Shown here in pieces: positions 12,642 through 23,226 of a stretch of 36,967 nucleotides of DNA; positions within the stretch are counted from its first letter, which is position 1; the number at the start of each line of letters is the position of its first letter. The notes beneath the pieces were generated by a model. The model ran no database searches. It worked only from the letters and a program-made list of their open reading frames with translations, and had not been told where the DNA came from. The stretch comes from Chloroflexota bacterium (lineage in GTDB: Bacteria; Chloroflexota; Anaerolineae; Aggregatilineales; J027): assembly GCA_010092845.1 (NCBI GenBank), contig JAADYW010000070.1:1-36967 (forward strand). The letters are read 5' to 3'. The position numbers and the translations under genes are program-made.

Positions 12642-14381
12642 CTAACTGCCAGGGTGATAATCCCGCAGGATGGAGTCCCCAATAAACTCGCGCAGCAGCG
12701 AATTATCCGGCACCAGATCGAGCCCCAGCGGGCGCACCCAGCGCAGGAAAGACAGCAGACGATGGGCCTCAACCCGCAACGGACTATCCGGATTGACCCG
12801 TAGCAGCAATGGTTCGACGAGCGGCCGCAGCACAGCCAGCTCGTAGACAAGCGCCGAGTTGAACATGATGTCGGCATTTTCTTGATAGGGAAATATGTTG
12901 CGTTTTTCGCCGCGGCGGACACTTGGCCAGCGCGCGAGGGTGTCTTCAGCAGTGTAGTGTCGATGCCGGGCGTCGCGCACGATGCGGCGGATGAGCCGTA
13001 TATCCGTAGTGGGGACACGGTTGTGGCGGTCGATGTTGAGTTGCGTCAACGCCGAAACATAGATCCTGAAGGTGTCATCACTGGATAGGGATGGTGTCAG
13101 ATCTGGGTTCATGCCATGGATACCTTCCAGGATGATGACATGATCTTGGCTGATTTGTATGGTGCGTCCTGGGCTGCTCTTGCCGGTCAAGAAATCGAAT
13201 CGAGGTAGTGAAACCGGTTTGCCATCAATTAAGTCGAGCAGGTTCGCATTGAGCAGTTCGACATTCAGAGCCTGGAGGCTTTCGAAGTCGTACTCACCGT
13301 TTTCATCAAGTGGAGTCAACTCCCGATCCACAAAATAGTTGTCCATTTCCAGAGTGAACGGTCTGATTCCGTGTGTCATCAACTGTATGGCGAGGCGCTT
13401 GGAGAAAGTTGTCTTGCCACTTGACGACGGCCCGGCGATAAGGGCAACCCGAACCCCTCTGGCATGTTGGTGGGCAATCTGCTGTGCAATCTGGGCAATA
13501 TTGCGCTCGTGCAGCGCCTCAGCGACCATGATGATCTCGCGGATGCGGCCATTGGTGATGGTGCTGTTCAGTTGACCAATATCCTCTACGCCAATGAGAT
13601 TAAGCCAATGCTGTGTCTGTTTGAAGACATCAGCCAGTTTCGGAGATTCGACAAAGGGCAAGACTGTGCCCGGCGTTTCATGGCGTGGAAAGCGCAACAC
13701 GAAGCCTTCATCAAAAGCGTGCAGATCGAAGCCATGGACATAACATGTTGAGGGCGCCATATAGCCGAAGAAGTAGTCAACATAGCCCCGGAGCTCATAG
13801 ACGCTCAAATAGTCACCTTCTCGGACATCCAGAAGGCGCACTTTGTCGTCGTCACCGCGTTCTGTGAAAATCTTGTAGACCACATCTAGCGGGAGATTCT
13901 GGCGCACAATGGGGGCATCGGCCTCGATGATCTCAGTCATCCGGGTCTTCAATTGGCTGAGTTCTTCGGGAGTCAGGTTCTCGCGGCCATGAATGCGGCA
14001 GAAGAATGCGCCTGTCGGCAAGGAGTGCTCAATCGTCACCTGACGTTCCGGGAATAGCTCGGCAGCGGCCACCACCAGCAAAAACGAGAGTGTCCGGCGA
14101 TAAATCCGGTTGCCATCACTATGGCGGAGGGTCACTGGTGTCACAGCGACATCGCGTGTCACCGGAACGGTAAGCTCGCGCAAGCGGTTATCGACAATCG
14201 CGGCGATGGCGCGCTCTTCCTTGGGAACGCTGTTATCGTTTTCCCATGCCTGGAAGAATGCCTGCAAGCGCGTACCTACCGGTCCTTCGTAGGGGGCTCT
14301 GTTCTCAAACAGTACCTGAACACGGTCGCGAGGCGCCGCAGGTTGGATATGCATAGTTGTGTCTGGCTTACGTGCTGTCAT
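12642..14381 (-). CDS. ThrRS-like N-domain / uridine-kinase-family nucleoside kinase fusion
   Basis: A 579-residue protein. The N-terminal ~90 residues resemble a TGS domain. Residues about 90-210 resemble the threonyl/alanyl-tRNA-synthetase second additional domain (segment FFCRIHGRENLTPEELSQL). The C-terminal half is a uridine-kinase-type P-loop kinase with AGPSSSGKTTFSKRL near 314-328, LEMDNYFVDRE, LPRFDFLTGK and ILEGIHGMNP. This architecture is known from several bacteria, but its physiological substrate is not settled. I chose the ATG at 14381, with GGAAA upstream, over an in-frame TTG at 14408 that lacks a ribosome-binding site. It ends 111 bases before the PSP1 gene and could be the first gene of that run. 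It is divergent from the LysM/M23 gene. Confidence 0.9.
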   Translation of the reverse strand: MTARKPDTTMHIQPAAPRDRVQVLFENRAPYEGPVGTRLQAFFQAWENDNSVPKEERAIAAIVDNRLRELTVPVTRDVAVTPVTLRHSDGNRIYRRTLSFLLVVAAAELFPERQVTIEHSLPTGAFFCRIHGRENLTPEELSQLKTRMTEIIEADAPIVRQNLPLDVVYKIFTERGDDDKVRLLDVREGDYLSVYELRGYVDYFFGYMAPSTCYVHGFDLHAFDEGFVLRFPRHETPGTVLPFVESPKLADVFKQTQHWLNLIGVEDIGQLNSTITNGRIREIIMVAEALHERNIAQIAQQIAHQHARGVRVALIAGPSSSGKTTFSKRLAIQLMTHGIRPFTLEMDNYFVDRELTPLDENGEYDFESLQALNVELLNANLLDLIDGKPVSLPRFDFLTGKSSPGRTIQISQDHVIILEGIHGMNPDLTPSLSSDDTFRIYVSALTQLNIDRHNRVPTTDIRLIRRIVRDARHRHYTAEDTLARWPSVRRGEKRNIFPYQENADIMFNSALVYELAVLRPLVEPLLLRVNPDSPLRVEAHRLLSFLRWVRPLGLDLVPDNSLLREFIGDSILRDYHPGS

Positions 14382-14426
14382 GATGTTTTTCCAGATAACT
14401 TGATACAATTGTTGGTTGGTAGTTGG

Positions 14427-14455
14427 TTGCCTAGACTAGCAAACAATCCTATCGT
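14427..14455 (+). promoter_or_regulatory. candidate sigma-70-like promoter for the LysM/M23 gene
   Basis: TTGCCT at 14427-14432 and TATCGT at 14450-14455 are separated by 17 bases, in the short region between divergent genes. The following ATG lies about 50 bases downstream. The -10 box is a weak match. Confidence 0.35.
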
Positions 14456-14504
14456 TACTGGTATATACATTGCAACCGCTGGAAGTTGGATCGCCTGGTT
14501 ACGC

Positions 14505-15962
14505 ATGAGTTCACATCAGAAGAACCTGAAAAGTCTATTTGGCAGTGCAGTGGCGGCTATGGCCATTCTACTTGCCATCTTTGTTTCGGTTGGTGACCCA
14601 ATGCCGGGTGTCCGGGCGCAAGACGGTTCACCTACTCCTATACCCAGCACAAATACAGTGCATGTTGTGCAGCGCGGCGAGACCCTCTATGGAATTGCAG
14701 CACAGTATGGCTCGTCTGTCGAGGCAATTATGACCGTCAATGGTATTACTGATGCGCGCTTCATTGCGGTTGGCCAACGACTACTCATCCCCGGCGCCCA
14801 GGCTGGCACCACTGCGAGCACGGCTGTCACGCATATCGTCGAACCAGGAGAAACATTGTATGCTGTGGCTGAGCGCTATCATACCACCGTCGATGCCGTG
14901 GCCATGCTAAACAATGTTACCCATCCCCGGCGGCTCTATGCAGGGCAGCGTCTCTCCTTGGGCGACCGGACTCCCAGCGGTGAGACTTTTGCGCGCTATG
15001 AAGTCCAGCCAGGTGATACGTTGCTACGTATCGCGGTCCAGTTCGCGATACCAGTGACCAGGATTGCTGCGGTAAACAATCTCTTGCCCCAATCCCCCGT
15101 CTGGCCAGGGCAGAATCTGCGTATTCCGGAGCAACCGCCAAATGGCGCCTGGCTTGATATTCAGGCACCGCTGGTAGCGCTGAGTATCAGTCCGGTTAAC
15201 CCCATTCAGGGTCAGTCAATCGGCCTGCGCTTCGAGTCCGATCGACCAGTCGAGGCAACAGGATCCTTTATGGGCCGTACCTTCCAGCCTTTGATGATCG
15301 AAGAGGGGCGCTACGGCGCCGTTCTGGGCGTGCATGCGTTTACTGTACCGGGCGTATATCCGATCCATTTACAGTTGGTTGCGGCTGATGGGCGCATTCA
15401 CTGGTACGATGTTCGCATCCGGGTTGACGATGGTGGCTATGGCAGCGAAGCCATCAATATCCCCGAAGATCGTCAATATCTTCTCGCCGGTGAGGTGGTG
15501 CAGACTGAGCTTGAGCGTGTCATCACGATCATGGCGGGTTTCAACACGACGCGGTACTTCGACGGGTTGATGGCGCTCCCGGCAAGCGGACCTGTAACCT
15601 CACAGTTTGGTACCCGCCGCTCATACAACGGTAGTCCCTATAACACATTTCATGCTGGTACCGATTTTGGTGGCGCCGTTGGCGCGCCGTTGACAGCCCC
15701 GGCAGATGGCGTGGTGATGCTGGCTGAGACGCTCCAGGTGCGCGGTAATACTGTGATCCTTGATCACGGCTGGGGAGTCTACACTGGCTATTGGCATCAA
15801 TCAGAGATCTACGTTGAAGTTGGGCAGCAAGTCAGTAAGGGTGACGTGATCGGTGCCCTGGGCGGGACCGGGCTGGTCACCGGGCCGCACCTCCATTGGG
15901 AAATGTGGGTCCAGGGTGTTCAGGTCGATCCGATGCAGTGGGTCCAGCAGACCTTTCCGTAG
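14505..15962 (+). CDS. secreted LysM-repeat M23 (LytM) peptidoglycan endopeptidase
   Basis: A 485-residue protein. The N-terminus has a Lys-containing n-region followed by a hydrophobic stretch (AVAAMAILLAIFVSV) and VRAQ, a signal peptide with a likely cleavage near residues 38-40. Three LysM repeats follow at about 53-96, 109-152 and 165-208, each with the GETL or GDTL signature. A linker/beta domain (about 215-350) precedes the M23 domain. The zinc site is intact: His383 and Asp387 in HAGTD, and H462-L-H464. It should cleave peptide cross-links in the cell envelope. The reading frame stays open to 14121 upstream, but the ATG at 14505 is the one that places the signal peptide at the terminus. 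Confidence 0.92.
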   Translation: MSSHQKNLKSLFGSAVAAMAILLAIFVSVGDPMPGVRAQDGSPTPIPSTNTVHVVQRGETLYGIAAQYGSSVEAIMTVNGITDARFIAVGQRLLIPGAQAGTTASTAVTHIVEPGETLYAVAERYHTTVDAVAMLNNVTHPRRLYAGQRLSLGDRTPSGETFARYEVQPGDTLLRIAVQFAIPVTRIAAVNNLLPQSPVWPGQNLRIPEQPPNGAWLDIQAPLVALSISPVNPIQGQSIGLRFESDRPVEATGSFMGRTFQPLMIEEGRYGAVLGVHAFTVPGVYPIHLQLVAADGRIHWYDVRIRVDDGGYGSEAINIPEDRQYLLAGEVVQTELERVITIMAGFNTTRYFDGLMALPASGPVTSQFGTRRSYNGSPYNTFHAGTDFGGAVGAPLTAPADGVVMLAETLQVRGNTVILDHGWGVYTGYWHQSEIYVEVGQQVSKGDVIGALGGTGLVTGPHLHWEMWVQGVQVDPMQWVQQTFP

Positions 15963-15996: not shown

Positions 15997-16116
15997 CATC
16001 TTCTGCTATGCTATTTCTCATCAAACGCCATTGCTCAAACATGGTACAGTAAGGTGGTTGTGCTGTTCGTCCATGGCCCTATCTATCGCAGCCTAACCAC
16101 CGGGAGAAAGCCTACC

Positions 16117-17745
16117 ATGCAGAAATTCACCCTTTCTGATGCCACTGGACGCTGGACGCTGGTTTCAACAATCCTGGCGTCGAGTATGGCGTTTATTGCG
16201 AGTGGGGCACTCAATGTGGCCCTCGATGCCTTGCAGCGTGATCTTGGCGCCACAGGCACGGAGTTACTCTGGATCGTCAATGGCTATCTGGTGTTTCTGG
16301 CGGCGTTAATCCTGGTTGGCGGCTCGTTGGGCGATCATTTTGGGCGCAAACGCATATTTGGCGGCGGCATCATCCTCTTTACGACAGCGTCGGCGGCGTG
16401 TGGAGTCTCACCCTCAATTGAGACCCTGGTCCTGGGCCGGATGGTACAGGGTGTCGGTGCTGCATTGATGGTGCCCGGCAGCCTGGCTTTGATCTCAGCA
16501 CTGTTTGCCGATCAAGTTCGGGGCAAAGCGATCGGGATCTGGTCTTCGGTGAGCACGATCACCACGATTGGCGGTCCGATCATCGGCGGTTTTCTGGTGG
16601 ATGAGCTTTCGTGGCGCTACGTGTTTTTCATCAATGTGCCTGTAGCTCTGGTGGCCCTGTTTGCGCTGTGGCGCGTTCCCGAAAACCGCGATGAGATGGC
16701 GTCCCCTAAACTCGATTATCTGGGTGCGGCTTTGATCACGATTGGGTTGGGCAGCCTGACCTATGGCTTCGTCACGTTAGGGGACAAGATCGGGACGGAA
16801 GGTGCCAATCTACTGCCGTCCCTGGTGGCGTCTGTCGTTGGGATACTGGCCTTGATCGCCTTTGTCTGGGTCGAGGCCCATAGCGAAGCCCCGATGGTCG
16901 ATCTTACGCTGTTCAAATCACGGACGTTTAGCGGCGCCAATCTCATGACCAGCTTGCTATATGCGGGTCTGTCGGTGACGTTGTTGTTTTATCCGCTCAA
17001 TCTTATCCAGGTTCAGGGGTACTCAGCATCGACAGCCGGCCTTTCGGTTATCCCCTTCAGCATTATGATTACCCTCTTGTCGCCCTGGGCGGGTAACCTT
17101 GTCGATCGCTATGGCCCCCGTATGCCGCTGACGGTGGGGCCCTTCATTGTGGCAGCAGGTTTTGGTCTCTTTATGTTGCCGGATGTTACCGGTGGGCCAG
17201 GCGACTTCTGGACGAGTTTCCTGCCAGGCATCACGGTCACAGGCATCGGGATGGGTGTCACGATCGCACCGCTAACCTCGACCGTGATGGGGGCAGTTTC
17301 CTCAGAACGGTCCGGGATTGCGTCGGGAATCAACAATGCGGTGACCCGATCATCGCAGGTGCTCTCGACCGCCATCCTTGGAGCGGTTGCGCTGGGGGTT
17401 TTCACCTCCGCGCTGACGTCACGTACCGACGATATCACAATGTCCAGTATGGCACGTGATGAACTGGCCGAGTCCGCTCATGAGCTGGGAAATGCGACGC
17501 CACCTGAAGCCCTGGAGGCCGATAGGACGGATGCGGTTCAACTGGCGATTGATCTCGCCTTTGTCGATATGTTCCGCGTTATCAACTTGATCTCAGCGGC
17601 GCTAGCGATCCTAAGCGGTATCCTGGCGTATGTGTTGCTGTCACCAGAAGCTGAGGAACCGAGTTCCGAGGCCGGCGGAGAATGGTATCATACGGCGGAT
17701 TGCTATAAGCGGAGTGTCACAGGTGGGCTTGCTTCGTCAGATTGA
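16117..17745 (+). CDS. MFS multidrug/efflux transporter, DHA2 (EmrB/QacA) type
   Basis: A 542-residue integral membrane protein with about 14 predicted hydrophobic segments, the normal number for DHA2 proton-driven drug antiporters. Motif A is seen as GDHFGRKR in the loop after TM2, and the motif-C-like GSLALISALF/GPIIGGFLVDELSWRYVFFINVP segment is typical of the EmrB/QacA group. The ATG at 16117 is preceded by GGGAGAAAG at a suitable distance; the frame is open further upstream but without a better site. No MarR- or TetR-type regulator and no membrane-fusion protein lie next to it, so it is probably a stand-alone pump. Substrate unknown. Confidence 0.93.
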   Translation: MQKFTLSDATGRWTLVSTILASSMAFIASGALNVALDALQRDLGATGTELLWIVNGYLVFLAALILVGGSLGDHFGRKRIFGGGIILFTTASAACGVSPSIETLVLGRMVQGVGAALMVPGSLALISALFADQVRGKAIGIWSSVSTITTIGGPIIGGFLVDELSWRYVFFINVPVALVALFALWRVPENRDEMASPKLDYLGAALITIGLGSLTYGFVTLGDKIGTEGANLLPSLVASVVGILALIAFVWVEAHSEAPMVDLTLFKSRTFSGANLMTSLLYAGLSVTLLFYPLNLIQVQGYSASTAGLSVIPFSIMITLLSPWAGNLVDRYGPRMPLTVGPFIVAAGFGLFMLPDVTGGPGDFWTSFLPGITVTGIGMGVTIAPLTSTVMGAVSSERSGIASGINNAVTRSSQVLSTAILGAVALGVFTSALTSRTDDITMSSMARDELAESAHELGNATPPEALEADRTDAVQLAIDLAFVDMFRVINLISAALAILSGILAYVLLSPEAEEPSSEAGGEWYHTADCYKRSVTGGLASSD

Positions 17746-17857: not shown

Positions 17858-17887
17858 TTGCAGGGTTAGATGTGAAATCGTTATAAT
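17858..17887 (+). promoter_or_regulatory. sigma-70-like promoter for the unassigned gene pair
   Basis: TTGCAG at 17858-17863 and a perfect TATAAT at 17882-17887 are separated by 18 bases. The predicted transcription start (about 17894) leaves a leader of about 40 bases before the ATG at 17935. This is the best promoter match I found in the window. Confidence 0.6.
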
Positions 17888-17934
17888 AGCGTGGTCATGC
17901 TGGAATTAGAGCGAAAGCGAGGGTGTGGCAGGCG

Positions 17935-19506
17935 ATGGAAACAAAAACCATTTTACCTCGACTAAGCAACGAAGAATCATTCTGGACCGACGCGTTCGAG
18001 GTCACGAACGACGACCTGGACTATCTCTTCAACCTGTTTCTTGAGACTGAGACACCGTTGAGCTTGCGTGATCTGACGCTGAAACTCATCGCGTATCGCT
18101 TGAATCAAGAAGAGCGCCGGATTGCCCAACAGATCAAGCGCGGGCAGTTGTTCCAGCCCCGTGCCCACTACGAAATTGGGCAGGAGATCGTTTTTCCTAC
18201 CCGGGACTACGAGGTGGGCGAGGTGGTCGCCACCCGGCCAGGCAACAACCCGGAATATGGCGAATTTGCCGTTATCAAGGTTCGTTTCGAGGACGGCAGG
18301 ACCGTCGAGTTCGCCAGTGATCTCCTGACACCGCATGTCCTCAACGTGGATGTGGAACAAATCGGGGATGATACAGTTGATCCGATGTTGATCCTGCGTC
18401 GGTACGGTCGCCATATCGCGCATAAGCTTAAAGACCGCTTCGATGAAGAAGAAGATGTCGTCTATCTCGCCGGACGCTGGTTTCTCAAATCGCTGTTGGC
18501 GGATGTCAATATTGCCCACCTGCACCTCTCTGAGGCGGTTCTCGATATGCACGGCGGGGGGCCCCTGGATACAGAGGCCATTCTGCAAGAGATTGGCATG
18601 GAATTTGACGCCAACGAACGTCTGCAGGTTTTCTCGATGGACTACGCCCTACAACAGGACGATCGCTTCGATGAAGTTGGGCCGGCGGGACGGGTGATCT
18701 GGTATTTGCGCCAATTGGAGCCAGATGCAGTCCGTCAGGTTCCGCCCCAACTCCGGTACGAGCCGATTCCCTATGAGCTAGGCCCATTGAGCGATGATAT
18801 GCAGGAGCTCATCATCGAGCTGGATGACGAGCTATCGCCGATTGAGCTACCCGATTACGAAGAGGACTCGGCAACGATTACGCTGACTTATCCCTATCGC
18901 CGCACCGGGACCTTACCCCTCGCCGCTAGTATGCAGCATCTGTTTCCCACCGCCTTTGAGACAAACCGCATCATGACGACGCTGATCGATTCGCAGACGG
19001 ATGAGGAAGTCCAGGGGTGGGTTGTGCGAGAGCAGGGGTACGTATATGGGCTGGAGAAATTCTATCGCCAGTATCAGATCCCGATTGGGGCCTATGTAAC
19101 GGTGCGGCGCCATGAGGACCCCGCCAAGTTGATCATCGATTTTGCCAATCACCGGCCGCGGACCGAGTGGATTCGTCTGGCCATTCCGGAAGAGAGCCTA
19201 CTCCGTTTCGAGAACCATAAACGCTCGATTGGTGCTGCCTATGATGACCTGATGATCTTTGGCGTGGAAGACATCGCCGCTTTCGATGCGCTATGGGTTC
19301 GTTGTCAAACAATGTCAATTGAAACGATTGTCAAGCGCCTGGTGCCGGAACTAACCCGCCTGACACCGCAACAGGCTGTGCACTTCAAGACTCTGTATAG
19401 TGCGGTTAATCTTGTTAAACGCTGCCCGCCAGAGCCTATTCTTGCAATTCTTGTCGGCCATCCTAATTTTGAACTTGTCGGAGGTGCTTACTGGAGGATG
19501 GCATAA
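17935..19506 (+). CDS. protein of unknown function, 523 residues, acidic
   Basis: I do not recognise this family. The product is soluble, with no signal peptide or membrane segment, and strongly acidic. Residues about 20-65 form a helical segment (DLDYLFNLFLETETPLSLRD and following) resembling a winged-helix start. Residues about 75-130 read like a small beta-barrel (GQEIVFPTRDYEVGEVVATR ... EFAVIKVRFEDGRTVEF), as in SH3- or KOW-like domains. A long middle part carries an EDSATITLTYPYRRTGTLPL beta segment and a conserved-looking VVREQGYVYGLEKFYRQY. The C-terminus (LVPELTRLTPQQAVHFKTLYSAVNLVKRCPPEPIL) looks helical. GTG at 17923 is an alternative start. It is followed after 29 bases by the 148-residue gene, very likely as an operon driven by the promoter at 17858. 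Confidence 0.8.
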   Translation: METKTILPRLSNEESFWTDAFEVTNDDLDYLFNLFLETETPLSLRDLTLKLIAYRLNQEERRIAQQIKRGQLFQPRAHYEIGQEIVFPTRDYEVGEVVATRPGNNPEYGEFAVIKVRFEDGRTVEFASDLLTPHVLNVDVEQIGDDTVDPMLILRRYGRHIAHKLKDRFDEEEDVVYLAGRWFLKSLLADVNIAHLHLSEAVLDMHGGGPLDTEAILQEIGMEFDANERLQVFSMDYALQQDDRFDEVGPAGRVIWYLRQLEPDAVRQVPPQLRYEPIPYELGPLSDDMQELIIELDDELSPIELPDYEEDSATITLTYPYRRTGTLPLAASMQHLFPTAFETNRIMTTLIDSQTDEEVQGWVVREQGYVYGLEKFYRQYQIPIGAYVTVRRHEDPAKLIIDFANHRPRTEWIRLAIPEESLLRFENHKRSIGAAYDDLMIFGVEDIAAFDALWVRCQTMSIETIVKRLVPELTRLTPQQAVHFKTLYSAVNLVKRCPPEPILAILVGHPNFELVGGAYWRMA

Positions 19507-19535
19507 GCACCGGCAACCAGGAGTATAACTGATCT

Positions 19536-19982
19536 ATGGACACAAACCCGTCGAGTAGCCATCTTCATCGCCGCCGCATTAAGCCAACGCTGGATACGCA
19601 ATTTCAAATCGATTACAGTTGGTGGGATCGTCAGGAAGCCGAGTTGCGAACCTATATCAGTAGTTTCCTGTCCGATGACCAACAGCAGGTCCTATCGAAT
19701 ATGGGTGAGGAAGAAGCGCTGGACGTGATTGATAGCGAAACGGCAGAGGTGCGACAGATCGACCCTTTGCAACATGCATTGAAGGAAGGCGTTGAACAGA
19801 TTGACTTTGCCCATATGCCCCTGGTCGATGCCGTGTTTCGCGTATTCCTGATGAATGGTAACCAGCCCCTGTCCCCCAATGAGCTGTCACACGTCATTCA
19901 ACGACCGGCAACAACGATCCTCAGAACACTCTCAGGCGCCCGCGTTTACCGTGGGATTCGGCCCGTTATCGAAGATGGATAG
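19536..19982 (+). CDS. small protein of unknown function, 148 residues
   Basis: Not recognised. The N-terminal ~20 residues are basic (HLHRRRIKP). The middle is acidic and helical, rich in Glu, Gln and Asp. The last ~45 residues (PLVDAVFRVFLMNGNQPLSPNELSHVI and on to ILRTLSGARVYRGIRPV) look like a winged-helix fold with a recognition helix and wing, so nucleic-acid binding or protein interaction is possible. CCAGGAG 12 bases upstream supports the ATG. It follows the 523-residue gene by 29 bases, and both contain a short helical '(P)LS...L' segment, hinting that they work together. A tRNA gene follows 56 bases downstream. Confidence 0.72.
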   Translation: MDTNPSSSHLHRRRIKPTLDTQFQIDYSWWDRQEAELRTYISSFLSDDQQQVLSNMGEEEALDVIDSETAEVRQIDPLQHALKEGVEQIDFAHMPLVDAVFRVFLMNGNQPLSPNELSHVIQRPATTILRTLSGARVYRGIRPVIEDG

Positions 19983-20038: not shown

Positions 20039-20114
20039 GCCCCCATAGCTCAGAGGTCAGAGCAGCGGTCTTCTAAACCGTCGGTCGGGAGTTCGAATCT
20101 CTCTGGGGGCACCA
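20039..20114 (+). tRNA. tRNA-Arg (anticodon UCU)
   Basis: A complete 76-base cloverleaf. The acceptor stem is GCCCCCA with TGGGGGC, and the D stem is GCTC with GAGC. The anticodon arm is GCGGT-CTTCTAA-ACCGT, so the anticodon is TCT and it reads AGA (and AGG by wobble). The variable loop is CGGTC and the T arm is GGGAG-TTCGAAT-CTCTC. The discriminator A is followed by an encoded CCA at 20112-20114. It stands alone and is followed by its own terminator. Confidence 0.96.
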
Positions 20115-20131
20115 AACGCTACATGCAACGA

Positions 20132-20163
20132 ACCGGTAGCCGGTGGGCTACTGGTTTTTATTT
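20132..20163 (+). terminator. rho-independent terminator of the tRNA-Arg transcript
   Basis: A 10-bp stem (ACCGGTAGCC with GGCTACTGGT, one G-T wobble) around a GGTG loop is followed at once by TTTTTATTT. It lies 18 bases after the tRNA 3' end and insulates it from the signalling gene downstream. Confidence 0.85.
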
Positions 20164-20307: not shown

Positions 20308-23226
20308 ATGTCAGATCAGAACGATGCCACAGACGCACTACCCGATTTTCCCATTGTTGCGCTATGTGCTTCCGCGGGTGGCTTACAGGCTTTCGAGACG
20401 TTTTTTGACGCCATGCCACCCCGCTCGGGGCTGGCCTTCGTTGTTGTGCAGCACCTCGCCAGCCAGCAGGAAAGTATCTTGCATGACCTGATCCAGCGCC
20501 ATACAGATATCGTCGTCCAGCCCATCAAGGATGATGTACTGGTCAAAGTGGATAACGTCTATGTGTTGCCGTCGCGCTATGCGCTCGAGTTCTCGAACGG
20601 GCACCTTCAGTTGGTATCGCCTAAACCGCTGGATGGCTGGCCGCGCACAATTGACCGTTTTCTCAAGTCCCTGGCGGAGGGCCACGGCCAGCTTGCAGGT
20701 GCTGTGATCCTCTCCGGAGCAGGGTCGGATGGTCTGGAGGGCGCACGCGCCGTCAAACGCTATGGTGGGCTGGTGTTTGCCCAGGATCCCGAATCTGCCG
20801 CACAGAACGGTATGCCGTCGAACATCATCGAGAGCGGGTTAGCGGATGCTGTGCTCGTGCCAGGGCAGATGCCGGAGGCCCTCCTGCGCCACTTCGAGAT
20901 TACGCCCTCGGCGGCCCCGGCAATTGAGGAAATCGGCGGGGACATCAGCGATGTGGAAGTTGAGATGGTGATCCGACGCTTGCAGCGGCAGACCGAGCGC
21001 GACTTCAGCAATTACAAATACAGCACCCTGCGGCGGCAAATTGCGCGCCGGATGGGCATCCACCAGTTCGACACGATTGATGACTACCTCGAATACATCA
21101 ATGACCATCCGGGGGAATCCCAGCAGCTTGCCCGCTATTTGCTCATCAATGTGACCAGCTTCTTTCGCGACCCGGAGGCCTTCGAATCCCTTAAGGTCAA
21201 TGCGCTGGAGCCGGCTTTGCGCAAGCTGGATATCGACTCCATCTTCCGGGTGTGGGTACCAGGTGTTGCTAGCGGTGAGGAGGCTATCTCCATCGCCATT
21301 GTGATTCACGAATGTCTGCGTGAGTTGGATATGCCAGAAATGCAGGTGCGTATCTTTGCGACCGACGTGAAACCGGAGCTATTGCAGCGCGCCCGTAGTG
21401 GCCTCTACCCCCAGGCAGTTGCGGAGGACATCACCCCCAGTCGCCTGCGCGATCACTTTATCGAGGAAGACAAAGGCTATCGCGTGCGCAACCATATCGA
21501 CCGCATGCTCATCTGGTCCGAGCATAATCTGGTGGAACACCCACCGTTCTCCAATCTGCACCTGATTAGCTGCCGCAATGTGCTGATCTACTTCCAGCGC
21601 CGCCTGCAGGAGCGGGTGTTTGCGCTATTCCAGTTTGCGCTACGCCCGGAGGGCACCCTCTTCCTGGGCCCGTCAGAGACGATGCCCCACGAGACGGATG
21701 CTTTTGCTCCTATTGACAGCAAACACCGTATTTACAGGCGCAAGGCTGGGCCACGCGGCGCCTGGTTACGTATTGACCAACCGTTGCTCATGAAAGTTCC
21801 GGACTACGCGGAGGCCCGTATGCCCAAGGATAATCCACCCCAGACCAGCCGCGAGGACCGCGAGCTTGAGGTTATCAAGCGTATGCTGGTCGAGTACTAC
21901 GATACTACGTGCGCGATTGTCAACGAGTTCTACCAGGTGCGCTACACATTTGGCGAGATCGATCGCTATCTGCGTATCGTCGCTGGCCGCGAGGGACAGC
22001 ACAATATCCTGGATATGGTGCGGGAAGGGTTGGATGTCGAGCTGACCATCGCGCTGCACGAGGCGTTCGAGACTGACAAGGTCGTTGTGCGGAAGAGTGT
22101 GTGGGTTAAGACCAATGGCGACGAACGTATCATCAACCTGATCGTCAAGCCTATCGTGGACGAGGGCCTGAGCGGCAACCTCAGGCTCATCATCTTCGAG
22201 ATGGTGTTGTCCGGCGAAAACCGCAACGTCGCAGATGGGGACCACGCTGATGGGGAAGAAGGCGCTACGATCAAACGCTTGCGTCAGGAACTCCAGCAGT
22301 CCCAGAAGGCTCTGCAGAACGTGACCCAGGCCCTGCAGGCCAAGAGCGAAGAACTGACCTCGTCAATGGAGGAGATTCGCTCGGCCAACGAGGAGGTTCA
22401 GACCACCAACGAGGAGCTGCGTACCTCCAAAGAGGAGCTCGAGTCGATGAATGAGGAGCTGAACACCCTCAATACCCAGCTCACCGACCAGAACGCGGAG
22501 CTGACGCGGGCCAATAACACACTCCACAACTTCCTGCAATCGACCGAGATCGGCATGATTTTCCTCGATCAGGACATGGCCATCCGCGAATATACTGCGG
22601 CCGTAACGGACATCTTCGGCCTGCGCCCCAGCGATATGGGCCGCCCACTCGCTGAGATCGCCAACCAACTTGCCTACCCGAAGTTGATCGAAGACGCCGA
22701 AAGCGTGCTCGATACCCTTAACAACGTCGAGAAAGACGTTCAGGCCGGCGATGGCAGGTGGTTCAATGTGAGGATTCGCCCCTATCGCACCACCAACAAC
22801 GTTATCGATGGGCTGGTGCTGACCTTCTCCGATATCGCTGACCAGAAACAGGCCCAGGCCCAGGCTGAGAAGCAGGCGTCCTACATGCGCCAGGTCTTCG
22901 ATACTATCGAGAACAGCTTACTGGAACTCAATGGCGACCTCCGCGTCGTCGGGGCCAATAACGCCTTCTACGAGAAATTCCAGGTTGCTGAAGAAGACAC
23001 CATCGGGCAGATGCTCTACGATCTGGGCAACGGCCAGTGGGACATTCCCGAACTGCGCCGCCTGCTCAATGAGATCATCCCACAGCGGACATTTGTGCGT
23101 GAGTACGAAGTCTCGCACGACTTCCCTGATCTGGGCCAGCGGACCATGCGCCTCAATGCACGCCAGATCGCTGAATTAAACCGTATTCTGCTGGTGATTA
23201 CCGACATCTCAGCAGGCGACGGCTAG
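20308..23226 (+). CDS. hybrid CheB methylesterase / CheR methyltransferase with coiled coil and PAS domains
   Basis: A 972-residue cytosolic protein. Residues about 15-195 form a CheB methylesterase domain without the usual receiver domain; the expected triad is Ser22 (CASAGG), His50 (VVQHLA) and Asp142 (GAGSDG). Residues about 215-475 form a CheR methyltransferase: LRRQIARRMG, NVTSFFRD, GVASGEE at 320-326 (in place of the usual GCSTGEE), FATD, and SCRNVLIYF. A long Glu-rich coiled coil follows (about 655-740), then two PAS-like segments (about 740-850 and 865-970). It ends there, with no kinase domain. Such CheB/CheR hybrids often feed histidine kinases. No receptor, CheA or CheW is nearby. 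The convergent PAS kinase, 6 bases from its stop, is a candidate partner. AAGGGAG supports the start. Confidence 0.94.
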   Translation: MSDQNDATDALPDFPIVALCASAGGLQAFETFFDAMPPRSGLAFVVVQHLASQQESILHDLIQRHTDIVVQPIKDDVLVKVDNVYVLPSRYALEFSNGHLQLVSPKPLDGWPRTIDRFLKSLAEGHGQLAGAVILSGAGSDGLEGARAVKRYGGLVFAQDPESAAQNGMPSNIIESGLADAVLVPGQMPEALLRHFEITPSAAPAIEEIGGDISDVEVEMVIRRLQRQTERDFSNYKYSTLRRQIARRMGIHQFDTIDDYLEYINDHPGESQQLARYLLINVTSFFRDPEAFESLKVNALEPALRKLDIDSIFRVWVPGVASGEEAISIAIVIHECLRELDMPEMQVRIFATDVKPELLQRARSGLYPQAVAEDITPSRLRDHFIEEDKGYRVRNHIDRMLIWSEHNLVEHPPFSNLHLISCRNVLIYFQRRLQERVFALFQFALRPEGTLFLGPSETMPHETDAFAPIDSKHRIYRRKAGPRGAWLRIDQPLLMKVPDYAEARMPKDNPPQTSREDRELEVIKRMLVEYYDTTCAIVNEFYQVRYTFGEIDRYLRIVAGREGQHNILDMVREGLDVELTIALHEAFETDKVVVRKSVWVKTNGDERIINLIVKPIVDEGLSGNLRLIIFEMVLSGENRNVADGDHADGEEGATIKRLRQELQQSQKALQNVTQALQAKSEELTSSMEEIRSANEEVQTTNEELRTSKEELESMNEELNTLNTQLTDQNAELTRANNTLHNFLQSTEIGMIFLDQDMAIREYTAAVTDIFGLRPSDMGRPLAEIANQLAYPKLIEDAESVLDTLNNVEKDVQAGDGRWFNVRIRPYRTTNNVIDGLVLTFSDIADQKQAQAQAEKQASYMRQVFDTIENSLLELNGDLRVVGANNAFYEKFQVAEEDTIGQMLYDLGNGQWDIPELRRLLNEIIPQRTFVREYEVSHDFPDLGQRTMRLNARQIAELNRILLVITDISAGDG

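Follow-up and report, generated by a model that had tools for sequence, protein, structure and literature searches.

Two adjacent genes conserved across a bacterial class

The window, a stretch of 36,967 nucleotides, contains two adjacent genes on the same strand that encode a larger multidomain protein and a small partner protein (Table 1). As the sequence-only reading of this DNA had proposed, the larger gene encodes 523 amino acids from its ATG (527 from an upstream GTG), the small gene encodes 148 amino acids, and 29 bases separate the stop of the first from the start of the second. Homologues of the two proteins shared 37 to 65% identity over the aligned length, and a survey of 199 genomes from the class recovered the larger protein in 184, almost always as a single copy, which together support both open reading frames as real genes. 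Because the named relatives were metagenome-assembled genomes of Chloroflexi or Anaerolineae, the class carrying the pair is probably Anaerolineae of the Chloroflexota. The larger protein is indeed acidic (pI 4.7, with 88 D/E versus 52 K/R). The basic N terminus ascribed to the small protein was observed only to a slight degree (pI 8.4 for residues 1 to 30), and the protein is acidic overall (pI 4.9).

Table 1. Features of the two-gene locus, with positions in the window
Feature	Position	Strand	Basis
Sigma-70-like promoter: TTGCAG, 18-nt spacer, perfect TATAAT at 17882-17887	17858..17887	+	Sequence; conservation of the -10 element
Larger gene, 523 aa, multidomain B3 protein (B3 very likely)	17935..19506	+	ORF, homologues, profiles
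N-terminal helical HTH-like domain, residues ~13-69	17971..18141	+	AF2 helices; mini-ORF profile match 93%
SH3-like barrel, residues 72-132	18148..18330	+	Structural aligner VIA, Z 5-6.4; without CarD profile support
Middle winged-helix-like region, residues 150-262	18382..18720	+	Profile match to other clade 99%; natural short forms end here
Very likely B3-type DNA-binding domain, residues 310-408	18862..19158	+	VIA Z up to 9.7; plant B3 profile 75.7%
C-terminal helical basic domain, residues 446-523, possibly HTH	19270..19503	+	AF2 helices; pI 8.8; weak HARE-HTH similarity
Small gene, 148 aa, partner protein	19536..19982	+	ORF, homologues, conserved adjacency
Putative winged helix of small protein, residues 93-146	19812..19973	+	AF2 model; VIA Z ~4 to IdeR/DtxR/Rex winged helices
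tRNA-Arg(TCT), conserved neighbour immediately 3' of the pair	20039..20114	+	Neighbourhood comparison
Terminator-like hairpin after the tRNA	20130..20157	+	Sequence

We analyzed the co-occurrence and order of the two genes in 61 close genomes. Presence and absence of the two proteins were identical, with the same 55 genomes possessing both and the same 6 lacking both. Of the 56 copies, 55 had the small gene next after the larger gene on the same strand, with the matched ends 23 to 288 bases apart (median, 57); the sole copy without an adjacent small gene was at a contig end. These findings substantiate the proposal of a two-gene operon with conserved order, and homologues routinely found apart were not seen. 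No detectable relatives of the pair were found in plasmids, phages, or viral contigs, and a mobile or phage origin was rejected. This result, together with the occurrence of the larger gene in 184 of 199 genomes at nearly always one copy, indicates that the pair is resident rather than mobile cargo, and the operon would have been inherited vertically in the class. One genome (G014) also contained a second, highly diverged paralogue of the larger gene (24% identity; a 628-amino-acid open frame at L142:5617-7407, minus strand), and we did not detect the small partner in the stretch fetched around this paralogue.

Genes flanking the pair in the window, as read by sequence, appear to encode a LysM/M23 peptidase (14121-15962), an MFS transporter (16054-17745), and a CheB-CheR-PAS fusion (20308-23226). 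Five further loci also had a LysM/M23-like peptidase as a neighbour of the pair.

Promoter and downstream tRNA

The operon had been described as lying behind the best sigma-70-like promoter in the window. The TATAAT of this promoter is perfect and conserved, but the ranking was not strictly true, since the site matches consensus at 9 of 12 positions and a match of 10 of 12 occurs at five sites elsewhere in the window; the -35 element (TTGCAG) is weak, with 3 of 6 matches. A perfect TATAAT occurred within 150 bp upstream of the larger gene in 34 of 42 relatives versus 1.7 expected from shuffled sequences. With start codons set by the same automatic rule in targets and controls, a perfect TATAAT was also found upstream of 16 of 23 targets versus 16 of 103 control genes (Fisher P = 7e-7). 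These two comparisons support the promoter as real, and conservation of a consensus -10 element argues for steady, strong expression of an operon likely driven by this sigma-70 promoter. In many class families (L146-L165), the pair has kept the tRNA-Arg(TCT) gene as its neighbour, suggesting that this gene may be cotranscribed with the pair.

Domain layout of the two proteins

We did not find a known family for either protein, consistent with the earlier reading; no match was obtained in Pfam, NCBIfam, PADLOC, or PHROGs, and none of the searches gave a confident match to a housekeeping family. No curated Pfam model was satisfied by the window proteins, by 40 and 39 class members of the respective families, or by ten distant orthologues, and no NCBIfam model was satisfied by the window proteins or the ten distant orthologues. 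Four representative proteins gave no convincing PADLOC or PHROGs match. Searching solved structures by sequence with the family profiles found nothing, and a viral fold library provided nothing informative. The pair of proteins is undescribed and is not listed in Pfam or NCBIfam.

The AF2 model of the larger protein was weak overall (mean pLDDT, 57) because only eight sequences were usable for folding. Local confidence was fair to good at residues 11 to 170 and poor at residues 190 to 310; pLDDT stayed under 40 through most of the middle region, the fold of which (residues 150 to 262) was not resolved by the model, and ranged from about 36 to 80 by ten-residue block across the B3 region. The SH3-like beta segment anticipated from the sequence was recovered by the model at residues 72 to 132. 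The model of the small protein was in keeping with the expected C-terminal winged helix, with helices at residues 96 to 106, 114 to 121, and 125 to 133 and a strand at residues 141 to 143. This region aligned to the winged helices of IdeR, DtxR, and Rex with a VIA Z score of about 4, and several members of the small-protein family gave weak matches to HTH models in Pfam. A Foldseek search with the small protein alone returned no significant match.

A B3-type domain very likely occupies the second half of the larger protein

B3 domains occur in plant transcription factors and bacterial restriction enzymes. The top Foldseek match of the AF2 model of the larger protein was the B3 domain of VAL1. 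When residues 310 to 408 of this modest-confidence model were compared with solved structures by VIA, the first 25 rows were all B3 domains with Z scores of 6.9 to 9.7, the best having an rmsd of 2.6 over 94 residues. These rows comprised plant ARF, FUS3, LEC2, NGA1, VAL1, TEM1, RAV1, and VRN1 and bacterial LlaJI, NgoAVII, and BfiI, with EcoRII below them at a Z score of 5.5.

For a test independent of AlphaFold, nine plant B3 sequences from solved structures were compared with residues 306 to 442 of both clades described below by profile-profile alignment. The plant B3 profile matched the both-clade family profile by hhalign at 75.7% probability with a score of 33.9, whereas 40 reversed or column-shuffled profiles reached at most a score of 16.2 and a probability of 1.2%, and other domains scored no higher than 14.8. 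Against the profile of each clade alone, the probabilities were only 31% and 16%. The alignment was collinear with the B3 strands. Residues G325, P328, P338, and G372 were invariant in both clades and G385 was 98% conserved, and all of these lie in core B3 motifs shared with plants. No curated B3 family model was found among 50 proteins at an E value of ≤1, which is still compatible with diverged membership. On the basis of the structural matches, the plant profile score, the collinear strands, and the invariant residues in shared motifs, we consider it very likely that residues 310 to 408 form a B3-type DNA-binding domain.

Natural short forms define a minimal module

The larger gene of five class families (f40, f44, f53, f54, and f56) ended cleanly after approximately residue 262 and was directly followed by the small gene. 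We did not detect the B3 half in genomes of these families by a search that detected it in ten control genomes, with one of three distant controls (G392) giving no signal. Because these five families have dropped the B3 half and kept the small gene, the constant unit in the class is residues 1 to 262 plus the small protein. The minimal module is therefore an HTH-SH3-winged-helix protein with its small partner, and the B3 half is ancient but dispensable. Loss of residues after ~262 with retention of the small gene would also place the partner contact on the N-terminal half. Furthermore, dispensability of the B3 half in several lineages implies that B3-mediated DNA binding is not the whole function. 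A sixth family (f13; L271 and L272) kept the N-terminal half, but its C-terminal half, ~300 residues long, was strongly diverged and gave no match to the B3 profile.

A split form in a second clade of the phylum

Profile searches identified diverged orthologues of the larger protein (~540 to 740 residues; 17 to 21% identity across the full alignment) in another large clade of the phylum, which is probably Chloroflexia; such an orthologue was not seen by this search in many other families of the phylum. Two genomes with the orthologue are ones that we take to be Chloroflexus aurantiacus and Roseiflexus sp. RS-1. In 16 of 16 distant loci, a separate ORF of ~50 codons ended close to, or overlapped, the start of the orthologue. 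A profile built from 15 of these 16 mini-ORFs matched the N-terminal helical domain of the class protein at 93% probability with a score of 33.7 (null maximum, 17.7). Judged from this match, one clade probably has the N-terminal domain as a free protein and the other has it as a fusion. The split and fused forms tie this domain to the remainder of the larger protein, and only those parts are linked in this way.

The small winged-helix protein belongs to the class of the window: a search of 13 genomes from outside the class, the majority of them with the distant orthologue, detected it in none, whereas in-class genomes gave matches in the same search. We also considered whether the small protein corresponds to the N-terminal domain of the distant orthologues, and this was rejected, as they had no similarity. 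Several distant orthologues (L126-L141) precede a conserved run of genes, named by eye, that encode an acidic HEAT-repeat-like protein and then PIG-L-like, FemAB/GNAT-like, and MurE-like proteins.

Proposed function of the operon

Presence of the B3 domain suggests that the larger protein is probably a lineage-specific DNA-binding regulator. In our model, the B3 domain would grip a specific duplex DNA site through an N-arm motif (RRxGTLPL) and a C-arm around GWVVRExxYVYGL, and the N-terminal HTH-like, SH3-like, and middle domains would form a platform joined by the small winged-helix protein. The complex would then act constitutively on transcription or local chromosome organization. We infer DNA binding, sequence specificity, a physical complex of the two proteins, and a role in transcription, and we judge the chances to be about even that the operon products form a housekeeping DNA-binding complex that constitutively regulates transcription or local chromosome organization.

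Universal, single-copy occurrence in the class, a strong conserved promoter, and several HTH-like regions within one complex would also suit a nucleoid-associated or chromosome-organizing complex with broad, low-specificity DNA binding in place of site-specific regulation. Both proteins are acidic, however, as is the B3 segment, and this overall acidity (pI 4.7 for the larger protein and 5.2 for its B3 segment) favours a factor that is site-specific or forms a complex over a nucleoid protein that coats DNA. In addition, B3 domains with solved DNA complexes, such as those of R.NgoAVII and BfiI, recognize specific sites (PMC4267653). We thus regard a nucleoid role as unlikely.

A factor for DNA repair, replication, or segregation that contacts DNA through its B3 and HTH-like regions without regulating transcription would fit the housekeeping distribution and the multiple predicted DNA-contacting regions equally well. 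This reading appears improbable to us, as linkage to dnaA was lacking in complete genomes and no recurring repair or replication neighbour was recognized in the neighbourhood comparison. The genes rnpA and yidC are usual neighbours of the replication origin. In one family (L156, L157, and L158; three genomes), the pair adjoins rnpA- and yidC-like genes; a link to the origin was nonetheless rejected, since complete genomes have dnaA at a distant position.

In an RNA- or translation-linked complex, the SH3-like barrel would bind either RNA or a translation-machinery protein, and the linkage to tRNA-Arg would be meaningful. Among natural proteins, domain I of EF-P is nearest to this barrel, with Z scores of 5 to 6, and the tRNA is a conserved neighbour in many families. 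Small SH3 barrels are generic, however, and these Z scores are within the stated background of the aligner; adjacency to a tRNA is a common accident of operon structure, and the distant orthologues have no adjoining tRNA. The sequence-only reading had suggested a complex, perhaps associated with DNA or RNA. Since B3 is a duplex-DNA fold, its presence points to DNA over RNA as the partner, and we consider an RNA role improbable. Finally, a defence or restriction-related system is highly improbable, even though B3 and HARE-type HTH domains are both found in restriction enzymes and bacterial B3 domains of known function are in such enzymes (PMC4267653), because neither protein matches a nuclease, ATPase, or methyltransferase family, no restriction-modification neighbour recurred in the neighbourhood comparison, and the pair is fixed at a near-universal single copy in the class with none in plasmids or phages.

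Our preferred reading remains a DNA-binding regulatory complex. These proteins may, as a tentative proposal that we hold at somewhat below even chances, represent a bacterial nonrestriction lineage of B3 regulators of transcription or chromosomes that is ancient in Chloroflexota, exists in a fused form with a small winged-helix partner and a split form with a mini-HTH gene, and is possibly nearer to plant B3 transcription factors than the B3 domains of restriction enzymes are. Such closeness would provide another possible bacterial origin for the plant B3 family, and a fixed housekeeping B3 protein in two major clades of one phylum, with a dedicated partner in one of these clades, would widen the known uses of the fold. 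The pair would also give a tangible starting point for work on chromosome biology and gene regulation in Chloroflexota, with the split form testable in culturable Chloroflexus and Roseiflexus if our identification of those genomes is right. We found no paper linking B3 domains with Chloroflexi or Chloroflexota in a search that left most subscription papers outside its reach and that is weak evidence of novelty.

Comparison with known systems

The SH3-like barrel resembles the RNA polymerase-interacting domain of CarD and TRCF (PF02559), with VIA Z scores of 5.0 to 5.5 to CarD. The resemblance is at the level of fold, and we do not propose a CarD-type RNA polymerase-binding domain, as the profile comparison gave 1% probability and a score of 12.8 (null maximum, 15.2).

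The middle, C-terminal, and N-terminal helical regions each resemble HARE-HTH or RNA polymerase delta-type winged helices (PF05066) at approximately 35% probability, with a shared motif of DxRFxxVG..G..WxL. These values are below any accepted threshold, although non-HTH controls gave less than 1%; the profile-profile score of the middle domain was 23. The larger protein did not reach the curated cutoff of PF05066, which in the window genome only another protein passes. Across the phylum, 17 of 151 genomes passed this cutoff, whereas nearly all genomes of its class carry the larger gene. We treat the HARE-HTH similarity of these HTH-like regions as a weak lead only. The window-genome protein that passes PF05066 is 353 amino acids long (C7:14491-15003, minus strand), with two HARE-HTH domains and an apparent Mrr-type restriction endonuclease domain.

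Among bacterial proteins, the B3 pseudobarrel is shared with the N-terminal domain of LlaJI.R1, R.NgoAVII, BfiI, and EcoRII (Z scores of 8.1, 7.3, 7.2, and 5.5, respectively). The B3 restriction enzymes studied combine the B3 domain with a nuclease (PMC4267653). In contrast, the larger protein contains no detected nuclease or ATPase domain and has no recurring methyltransferase neighbour, and the pair is fixed and near-universal in its class. The missing nuclease and this fixed distribution make a restriction role unlikely.

Likeness to the plant B3 domains of VAL1, FUS3, LEC2, RAV1, and ARF extends over approximately 95 residues of fold (best Z scores of 8.8 to 9.7) and includes the collinear motifs G-x-L-P ... 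FP ... D ... G(W/L) ... GD/GA. Identity to these domains is about 10 to 18%, and the protein described here is bacterial and without the plant companion domains. Instead, its B3 domain sits among HTH-like, SH3-like, and winged-helix-like regions and is accompanied by a dedicated partner gene.
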